Shown: positions 18,829-21,455 of the stretch, in pieces | Position numbering within the stretch: position 1 is the first letter of the stretch | Layout of the letters: each line of letters begins with the position of its first letter | Translations under genes and position numbers: made by a program | The notes under the pieces: model-generated | Database searches by the model: none | What the model was told of the DNA's origin: nothing | The model's input: only the letters and a program-made list of their open reading frames with translations | Assembly: GCA_903904005.1 (NCBI GenBank) | Contig: CAIVAR010000159.1 | Span: 1-36,757, forward strand | Length of the DNA stretch: 36,757 nt | Reading direction: 5' to 3' | Origin: an uncultured Anaeromyxobacter sp. | GTDB lineage: Bacteria; Myxococcota; Myxococcia; Myxococcales; Anaeromyxobacteraceae

Positions 18829-20493
18829 TCATCCTGTCGAGGTGCTCGTCCCGCACCGCTCGACGACCGCCAGGACCCCGAGAAGCAGCTCCTCCCGGAC
18901 CGCCTGGAACTCGGCGGAGCTCGTGGTCATCACGTCGGCCGAGATCTCGATGTCGAGGGAGTTCGCGCCGAGCGCCGCGAGCCGGGCCCGCGCCTCCCCC
19001 GCGTCGAGCTTCGGATGGGAGTCGAGCAGCGCCTGGAGCCCGGCGAGGACGGCCCGCACCTGCTCCTGGGTCGACTCGCGGGAAATTCCGACGGTCGTCT
19101 TGAACGGCATCCGGTCGCGCGCCGAAAGGTTCACGATCGACATCTTCGCGAGCGAGCTGTTGGGGACCGTGGTCACCGTGCGATCCGCGTTCCGGATGCG
19201 CGTCGACCGGATGCCGATGGCGAGGACGGTCCCGTTCGCATCGCCGACCTTGCACCGGTCCCCCACCCGGATCGGCTTGTCGGCGAAGAGGTTCAGTCCT
19301 GCGATGAGGTTCTCGAGCGTGGGCTGGGTGGCCAGTGCGACCGCCAGACCGCCGACGCTGACCCCCGCGACGATCCCGTAGACCGGGATCCCGAGCCGGT
19401 CGGCGCCGATCGACAGCAGCACGAGCGCGCCGGCGAACCCCAGGACCCGCGAGGTGAGACGGATGAGATGGGCGTCCACGCTCTCCGCGGCGATGCGGGG
19501 GGAGGCCACGAGCGCCTCGGCCACGACCGGCGCCAGCCGAGCCGACGCGCCCGCCGCGCCCATGAACCCCACCGCGGTGGCCGCGATCTCGATGGCCACG
19601 GCGAGATGGCTGACCACGTTCACCTGCACCAGCGTCAGCCACACGAAGGCCGGCGTCACGACGACCACCGTGACCGGGAACACGAGCCTTCGCAGCGCCC
19701 GGGCGAGCGGGGACTGCCCCTCCGGGCTCCCGGACCGGCGGAACGCGAACGCGAGGATGACCGCGTAGGCGGCCCCCAGGACGGCCAGGGCGAGCCACTT
19801 CCAGACGACCTGCCCGCCGATCGTGGCGCGCAGCCAGGCCGGCTGCGCGTGGATCCAGGCGTACGGGATCCACCATCCCCCGCCCTCGGCGAGCATCGCC
19901 CCCAGCCACCGGGTCGGGACCGGGCGTTTCACCGGGAGCGCGTGCGTGCGCTGCGCGAACTCCTCGGCGCGGGCGACGGTGTCCGGGCTGAAGAGGAAGT
20001 CGCCGGCCTCCGGCCCGCTGTCGACGCGGATCAGGGTGATCTCGGTGTCCGGGATGGTCCAGCGCCGGGCGGCGGCGTCCTTGCCGGCCGCCATCTGCTG
20101 GGCGTCGGGCACGTCCTCGAGCGGCGGGAGCGCGATCCGGGTGAGCGCCGAGAAGAGCGCGATGGCCGCCGAACGCCCCATCTTCCTCCGGGCGGCAGGA
20201 GCGATCTGCTGGAGATCGAGGCACCGGACGGCGTCGTCGCCGAGTGCCAGGAGGTGATCGAAGCCTGCCCGGGTCTGGTCGTGGACGTAGACGTCGGCCG
20301 TGTACCGCATGACCGCGTCCCCGGCCTCGAGGAACCGCTTCAGGGTGGCCCGGGGACTCGACCGGTCGGCGGGCTGGAGGGGGCGGGACGGCGCCTCGGC
20401 GGAGGCCGGAGCCGCCACGAGCACCAGGGCGGCGGCCATCGCCAGGAGCGGCCCGCGGGCGGCTCGCGTGGCCCACTTCGTCGTTGCGGTCAT
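18829..20493 (-). CDS. MscS-family mechanosensitive ion channel with extended N-terminus
   Basis: The 554-aa protein starts at ATG 20493 with GGAGGA 7-12 nt upstream. A signal peptide (MTATTKWATRAARGPLLAMA, ending APASAEA) is followed by about 170 residues of periplasmic sequence, then about four to five membrane helices. The channel core has the TM3 helix and beta-domain signature GIPVYGIVAGVSVGGLAVAL, ATQPTLENLIAGLNLFADKP, IRVGDRCKVGDANGTVLAIG and TVTTVPNSSLAKMSIVNLS. It releases solutes on membrane tension; the periplasmic domain may tune gating or sense another cue. The reading frame stays open up to 21009 across the antisense selenoprotein gene, but no ribosome site supports a longer protein. 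It may be the first gene of the minus-strand envelope locus. Confidence 0.9.
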   Translation of the reverse strand: MTATTKWATRAARGPLLAMAAALVLVAAPASAEAPSRPLQPADRSSPRATLKRFLEAGDAVMRYTADVYVHDQTRAGFDHLLALGDDAVRCLDLQQIAPAARRKMGRSAAIALFSALTRIALPPLEDVPDAQQMAAGKDAAARRWTIPDTEITLIRVDSGPEAGDFLFSPDTVARAEEFAQRTHALPVKRPVPTRWLGAMLAEGGGWWIPYAWIHAQPAWLRATIGGQVVWKWLALAVLGAAYAVILAFAFRRSGSPEGQSPLARALRRLVFPVTVVVVTPAFVWLTLVQVNVVSHLAVAIEIAATAVGFMGAAGASARLAPVVAEALVASPRIAAESVDAHLIRLTSRVLGFAGALVLLSIGADRLGIPVYGIVAGVSVGGLAVALATQPTLENLIAGLNLFADKPIRVGDRCKVGDANGTVLAIGIRSTRIRNADRTVTTVPNSSLAKMSIVNLSARDRMPFKTTVGISRESTQEQVRAVLAGLQALLDSHPKLDAGEARARLAALGANSLDIEISADVMTTSSAEFQAVREELLLGVLAVVERCGTSTSTG

Positions 20494-20623
20494 CTCGTGT
20501 CCTCCGGGGGCAAATAAGTACTCGCCTCCCACGAGATGTCCAACGGGAGCATCGACCGTCCGGATCTCGTACGCTCCGGGGGCGGTCACCGTCGGTCGGA
20601 CCTGGCAGTCGCCGTCCGATCGG

Positions 20624-20652
20624 TTGGCCAGCCGGACGAGAGCCCTTATTGT
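20624..20652 (+). promoter_or_regulatory. Possible promoter for a leaderless selenoprotein mRNA
   Basis: TTGGCC (20624-20629) and TATTGT (20647-20652) have a 17-nt spacer, each matching 4 of 6 consensus bases. The expected start point is about 20659, exactly the A of the selenoprotein ATG, and no Shine-Dalgarno precedes that ATG. A leaderless transcript is therefore inferred. Confidence 0.35.
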
Positions 20653-20658
20653 CTCCCC

Positions 20659-20892
20659 ATGCTCACGATCGAGTACTGCACCGCCTGAGGGTATCTCCCC
20701 AGGGCCCGAGGTCTCGGGCAAGCCATCGAGGAGAAGGTTCCCGGAAAGGTGAAGGTCCACCTGAAGGGCGGGAGGCGAGGGTCCTTCGAGGTCACCCTCG
20801 ACGGGGAGGTGATCCATTCCAAGCTCGACACCGGGGACTGGCCGGACGAGGCGAAGGTGGTCGCGGCGGTCGCAGGGCGGCTGGCGCGCTGA
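20659..20892 (+). CDS. SelW/Rdx-family selenoprotein (UGA-encoded selenocysteine at residue 10)
   Basis: The 77-residue protein reads MLTIEYCTA-U-GYLPRARG when the in-frame TGA at 20686-20688 is decoded as selenocysteine (U10). It is a thioredoxin-fold redox protein of the SelW/Rdx family. The CxxU motif (C7-T-A-U10) sits in the family's redox loop at the usual place near the N-terminus. The rest matches SelW region by region: KVPGKVKVHLKGG, GSFEVTLDGEVIHSKLDTGD, WPDEAKVVAAV. The normal stop is TGA at 20890-20892. A bacterial SECIS hairpin begins 15 nt after the UGA. Family members use CxxU or CxxC to reduce partner proteins; the partner here is unknown. Standard gene finders break this gene at the TGA. 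Upstream in-frame codons offer no other start. An alternative, a nonsense mutation of a CxxC homologue, is much less likely because the TGA sits exactly at the Sec position. Confidence 0.9.
20704..20719 (+). promoter_or_regulatory. Bacterial SECIS element of the selenoprotein mRNA
   Basis: GCCCGA (20704-20709) and TCGGGC (20714-20719) form a perfect 6-bp stem around the loop GGTC. With its closing A-U pair the apex is AGGUCU, the same as in the Escherichia coli fdhF SECIS, whose loop G and U contact SelB. Counting U of UGA as 1, the loop GU lies at 26-27, one codon further than in fdhF (23-24) and within the range known for bacterial SECIS hairpins. It lies inside the coding sequence and encodes R15-A16-R17-G18-L19-G20. 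Confidence 0.8.
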
Positions 20893-20954
20893 CCCGGGCG
20901 CGGATTGGCCTTCCGGCGCTGGCCTTGCTACCGTTTCCGGCAGGGAGATCCACC

Positions 20955-21455
20955 ATGCCTCGAACCTCGATCCGTGAAGGCTCCAACCTGCCGTCCGTCC
21001 TGTTCGCATCGCTCGGGATCGCGCTGGGAATCCCCCTCGTCCACGACGACTTCGACCGGCGCCTCCTCACCGCCGACAGCATCTTCCACTCCCTGGTGAC
21101 GGCACTCCTGGCCGCCCTCCTCCTCCCCGCCTGCAAGTCGTCGGCCCCCTACACGCTTCCGGCCGCCGGCATCAACGCCGCCCTCGCCGCCACCGCCTCG
21201 GTGGCCCAGCGCAGCGCCGGCGGCTGTTACGCCCAGTGCGTGGGCGGCACGGTCTGCAACCCGAACACGGGTTTCTGCGACTCGCCCGGCGCCGTCTGCC
21301 TCGGCCTCGATTCCGATCCCCTCTCCTGCCTGAACCGCCCGGGGACGACGATGGATGCCGCCTCGTCGGTTCCGGTGATGGGCCCGATCAACTCTCCGAT
21401 CGGCATCTCGCCCGCCACCGGCTCGGTGCCGCCCCCTCCGGGTTCCCGCCCATAG
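20955..21455 (+). CDS. Small Cys-rich lipoprotein-like protein
   Basis: The 166-aa protein starts at ATG 20955 with AGGGAG 7 nt upstream. An unusual 58-residue N-terminal region (MPRTSIREGSNLPSVLFASL, then GIALGIPLVHDDF) precedes what looks like a lipoprotein signal, LVTALLAALLLPAC-KSS (lipobox LPAC). A second possible start is a GTG inside LVTALLAA, but this would lack a basic n-region and a ribosome site. The mature part has a Cys-rich core, GGCYAQCVGGTVCNPNTGFCD-like (residues about 94-116), of the CxxxCxxGxxCNxxTGxC kind found in many myxobacterial surface proteins, and then a Pro/Ser-rich tail. The function is not known. It lies 62 nt after the selenoprotein gene and 53 nt before the CurA-like gene. 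Confidence 0.7.
   Translation: MPRTSIREGSNLPSVLFASLGIALGIPLVHDDFDRRLLTADSIFHSLVTALLAALLLPACKSSAPYTLPAAGINAALAATASVAQRSAGGCYAQCVGGTVCNPNTGFCDSPGAVCLGLDSDPLSCLNRPGTTMDAASSVPVMGPINSPIGISPATGSVPPPPGSRP

Follow-up and report, generated by a model that had tools for sequence, protein, structure and literature searches.

The window, by which we mean the whole stretch of 36,757 nucleotides analysed here, is contig C159 of the genome of an uncultured Anaeromyxobacter sp. (G000; 4.56 Mb, 98% complete). Its plus strand carries a selW-like gene of the Rdx family at 20659..20892, which starts with an ATG at 20659-20661, contains an in-frame TGA as codon 10 (20686-20688) and ends with a second TGA at 20890-20892. 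Read through the first TGA, the gene gives a product of 77 residues (MLTIEYCTAUGYLPRARGLGQAIEEKVPGKVKVHLKGGRRGSFEVTLDGEVIHSKLDTGDWPDEAKVVAAVAGRLAR), with selenocysteine (Sec) predicted as U10 of a C7-T-A-U10 motif. A divergent gene for an MscS-type mechanosensitive channel lies at 18829..20493 on the minus strand, and its recognised domains fall in the part starting at 20493. Downstream of the selW-like gene, an ORF of 166 aa (20955..21455, plus strand) has no Pfam match. Further along the plus strand, a frame at 21532-23667 matches the glycerate kinase family over residues 342-706 (PF02595, E 1e-142) and is preceded by a region without Pfam match, which points to a fusion or else to a start placed too far upstream. 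In two genomes of the same genus, blastn similarity to the window was confined to the readthrough ORF (locus positions 1493-1722, approximately from the ATG to the final stop), and the flanks showed none. Since the flanks are unrelated within the genus, there is no conserved operon around this gene. A scan of viral contigs found no relatives.

The readthrough protein matches Pfam Rdx (PF10262) at E 5.3e-20 over residues 2-71 (71.9 bits, cut-off 22.6) and NCBIfam TIGR02174 (SelT/SelW/SelH) at E 7.2e-20 (71.1 bits, cut-off 34.2). Both matches extend across the UGA, and hence the observation is real rather than a product of chance. The CxxU motif directly follows a strand at residues 2-7, and its columns 7 and 10 are invariant in the alignment. 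The original prediction of a hidden 77-aa SelW-like frame with C7, U10, GSFEV, HSK and GD-W was exact in its coordinates, and all of these motifs, as well as the Rdx match across the UGA, were recovered. Our results show that 20659-20892 is a genuine gene for a small SelW/Rdx redox protein.

The closest solved structures by sequence are C17orf37/MIEN1, SAV_2001 and mouse SelW. Family and fold are shared with mammalian selenoprotein W (2npb; sequence match E 6e-6), the native form of which also has CxxU, and with MIEN1/C17orf37 (2ljk; E 6e-10). An AlphaFold2 model built from 26 aligned sequences, with U modelled as Cys, reached a pLDDT of 95.6 and thus predicts an Rdx/thioredoxin-like fold with high confidence. 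In a Foldseek search, the 23 significant (top) PDB matches were all SelW/Rdx proteins (TM 0.74-0.92), with thioredoxins ranking behind. The Cys-form bacterial Rdx proteins 3dex, 2fa8, 2obk and 2oka share the modelled fold with TM-scores of 0.87-0.92 of query length. Such Cys-form proteins have CxxC where selW has CxxU, and in the alignment of 3dex with the selW protein the redox motif reads CTQC.

A single stop inside an otherwise open frame might also be explained by decay, where a Cys copy acquired a TGC-to-TGA nonsense mutation and became a pseudogene. Past the UGA, dN/dS in same-genus comparisons was only mildly below 1 (dN 0.22-0.31, dS 0.37-0.49), which is not very low and would fit this explanation. 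Against it stands the distribution of the TGA among relatives. Rdx genes were found in 18 of 60 related genomes, and in 17 of these 18 the gene had a single in-frame TGA. Across 145 genomes of the order, there were 88 Rdx matches in 87 genomes, and 86 of the 88 had one in-frame TGA; in this search, members of the window's own family outside its genus had no Rdx. At the level of the phylum (195 genomes), the in-frame TGA was present in 97/100 Rdx matches. We inspected 41 copies directly, including one from a Candidatus Tectomicrobia MAG and one from the MAG of an unclassified bacterium (two further loci were missed by the motif search), and the TGA occupied the same codon in 40 of them, the remaining copy (L017) having TGC there. 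Retention of the TGA across families is a strong argument against decay. The similar lengths to which the frame stays open across copies and the presence of selA, selB, selC and selD in the genome also speak against it. A decaying pseudogene is therefore very improbable.

The genome was indeed found to contain all four components of the Sec machinery, as the original prediction had implied. The selC gene encodes a tRNA-Sec (80 bits) with a UCA anticodon (tca in ARAGORN). SelA (470 bits) and SelB (307 bits with its neighbours, in a frame of 727 aa) are on the same contig at a distance of ~5-6 kb, and SelD scored 387 bits. A second tRNA-Sec candidate (C142, 50.7 bits) was rejected because it is a tRNA-Ser(tga). 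The selD gene (L040, G000:C7:13565-14491, minus strand) itself has a single in-frame TGA at HGAG-U-ACK, which makes it a selenoprotein gene; this context places the TGA at the position of the catalytic Cys17 of E. coli SelD. The Sec type of the SelD gene argues strongly, although circumstantially, that this organism decodes Sec. All checks of the original prediction that could be made by computation, namely for an Rdx match over the UGA, for Sec machinery in the genome and for a CxxC homologue in a relative (see below), were positive, and they turned up nothing that would have refuted it.

The machinery also accompanies the TGA in relatives. In the set of 60 genomes, all 17 TGA carriers had machinery, with a tRNA-Sec above the cut-off in 14 and SelA in the other three (G039, G049 and G055), in which no tRNA-Sec above the cut-off was found. 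The only carrier of a Cys copy in this set, G030, had neither SelA nor a tRNA-Sec above the cut-off. Its copy (L017, G030:C109:27858-28061), from the same order as the window, has TGC in place of TGA and hence provides the CxxC homologue at the same position that the original prediction had named as confirmation. Another genome, G097, carries a tandem Rdx pair (L070, G097:C44:127685-128259, minus strand), in which the first copy has CNSU with TGA and the second, ~170 nt downstream, has CVTC without TGA; this pair is a natural Sec/Cys duplicate.

An alternative explanation might be that suppression, or a different genetic code, makes the UGA a codon for some other amino acid, for example Trp. 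We found no support for another amino acid or an altered code, and several observations speak against it: selW itself and several of its orthologues terminate in TGA, a homologue has Cys at this position, and the genome encodes a tRNA-Sec with a UCA anticodon. This reading is extremely improbable, and the internal UGA almost certainly encodes Sec.

A predicted bacterial SECIS (bSECIS) hairpin is located at 20704..20719 on the plus strand, with stem GCCCGA/UCGGGC and loop GGUC. Published bSECIS criteria comprise a loop of 3-9 nt, a stem of 4-16 bp, a G within the first two loop bases, a spacing of 16-37 nt and an MFE <= -7.5 (PMC13188914). The window hairpin falls within these ranges, with its 6 bp stem, its loop GGUC, 21 nt from UGA to loop, and -11.1 kcal/mol for the surrounding 24-nt segment. 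The filter is weak as stand-alone evidence, however, because 89 of the 566 TGAs in the G+C-rich window pass it (16%). Conversely, the strict filter rejects seven of the TGA carriers. When the window was scanned against Rfam at gathering scores, a tRNA was the only match and no SECIS family was found. The fold of the window hairpin alone was not significantly stable, since its z was ~0 and 23 of 300 synonymous recodings were at least as stable. We therefore relied on conservation. Pooled over the 41 copies, which are related to each other, the hairpin exceeded its synonymous recodings in stability (mean z -1.29).

In most of the 41 copies, the hairpin lies at an equal distance from the UGA, and most relatives from other families have GGCCGCC-CGUGC-GGCGGCC or a near variant at this same distance. 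The loop G at +26 (column 26) is invariant in a 17-row alignment, outside of which stands the more distant L035 with its loop one base further on, and the encoded peptide varies (RGLG versus RAARAA). Furthermore, the codon containing the +26 G has T as third base in 30 of the 40 TGA copies, although T fills just 189 of the 2800 third positions counted across these genes. As judged from these sequence comparisons, it is the positional conservation, and not the fold score, that is the evidence for a putative recoding signal. The Cys-form copy L017 keeps a short hairpin with a GTC loop at the SECIS position, which is no stabler than its synonymous recodings (z 0.34) and is possibly a SECIS remnant. 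In mammalian SelW, the SECIS is located in the 3'-UTR. The hairpin described here differs from it by lying inside the coding region.

The gene was also predicted to be antisense to an open frame, and this frame spans 18829-21009 on the minus strand (726 aa). One might argue that the real gene is on the minus strand and is merely mirrored in the sense match, because long open antisense frames overlap selW and the antisense translations are likewise similar between species. Yet, the sense frame fits a curated family (E 5e-20) and keeps its catalytic motif, and over codons +1 to +15 of all copies the third positions show the most variation when read in the sense frame (4775, as against 3155 and 2659). 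The antisense frame is the MscS-type channel gene extended upstream beyond its likely ATG at 20493, and the recognised domains lie in the part from that ATG onwards. Hence, a minus-strand gene at this place has next to no probability, and the sense frame is to be regarded as the gene, across which an automatic caller could stretch the MscS-type gene.

In the window, no clear Shine-Dalgarno motif precedes the selW ATG, and a scan for the sigma-70 consensus upstream of selW returned nothing. A -10-like box (TATTGT, 20647..20652, plus strand) lies 6 nt upstream of the ATG and is a tentative promoter element. Among the 17 copies with an ATG at this position, TAnnnT at a spacing of 5-8 nt occurred in eight, where 0.14 were expected from the local background; this pattern was picked post hoc, and at least five of the eight carriers are close relatives from the same genus. 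A -10-like box (TATnnT or TAnnnT) together with the lack of a clear Shine-Dalgarno motif was seen in the window and in L023, L024, L025, L026, L031, L034 and L061. Possibly, although we consider it rather unlikely, the selW mRNA here and in several related genera, where such a box ends ~6-7 nt ahead of the ATG, is leaderless and has its 5' end at the AUG or right beside it. If so, codon 10 would receive its Sec on a leader-free transcript, when the ribosome has barely moved past initiation.

Sec insertion and redox activity are inferences from what was computed here: membership of the SelW/Rdx family, the redox motif, the conservation of the UGA, the hairpin, the Sec machinery of the genome and the modelled fold. 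The best explanation, with a probability of roughly 96%, is a selW-like selenoprotein gene with SelB-mediated Sec insertion at the UGA of codon 10. The ribosome would initiate at the ATG at 20659, and SelB bound to the hairpin ~21 nt downstream would bring Sec-tRNA-Sec, supplied by SelA, SelD and selC, to codon 10. After Sec insertion, translation would run on to the second UGA (20890), which would then act as stop. The 77-residue thioredoxin-like product would cycle its CxxU via a selenenyl-sulfide, probably as part of thiol/peroxide redox metabolism.

These features are consistent with the bacterial SelW-like selenoproteins described by Zhang and Gladyshev, which share with our protein the Rdx domain, the N-terminal CxxU, a bacterial SECIS just past the UGA and the predominance of the Sec form (PMC1088965; PMC1794560). 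With 48 genes, SelW-like proteins outnumbered every other selenoprotein family in the Sargasso Sea data set; the same study called the function of SelW unclear and mentioned a reported glutathione interaction (PMC1088965). A later study listed SelW-like as one of 25 selenoprotein families, with Sec apparently as its original form, and its table of 2006 recorded the family in Desulfotalea, Geobacter, Desulfotomaculum, Alkaliphilus and Symbiobacterium (PMC1794560). Our results differ from this published set in lineage, and its entry for Anaeromyxobacter dehalogenans contains 11 selenoproteins without SelW-like among them (PMC1794560). In a search of a limited part of the literature, we found no papers on SelW in myxobacteria. 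The original prediction had remarked that Sec-containing SelW is known in only some bacteria. Sec-containing SelW is not unusual, however: the family is a published one (PMC1088965; PMC1794560), and the Sec form is the norm in this phylum.

Sec-type SelW is thus a long-known bacterial family, published since 2005, and what is new here is a member in this lineage. The general understanding of selenoproteins is not changed by this selW gene. Our analysis does confirm that SelW of the Sec type is encoded in a lineage from which the literature searched contained no such report. Almost every Rdx gene found in the phylum has the in-frame UGA, and genes of this kind are at risk of being missed or truncated in annotation. 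With the Cys copy of G030 and the tandem Sec/Cys pair of G097, the phylum offers a natural set for comparison of the Sec and Cys forms.
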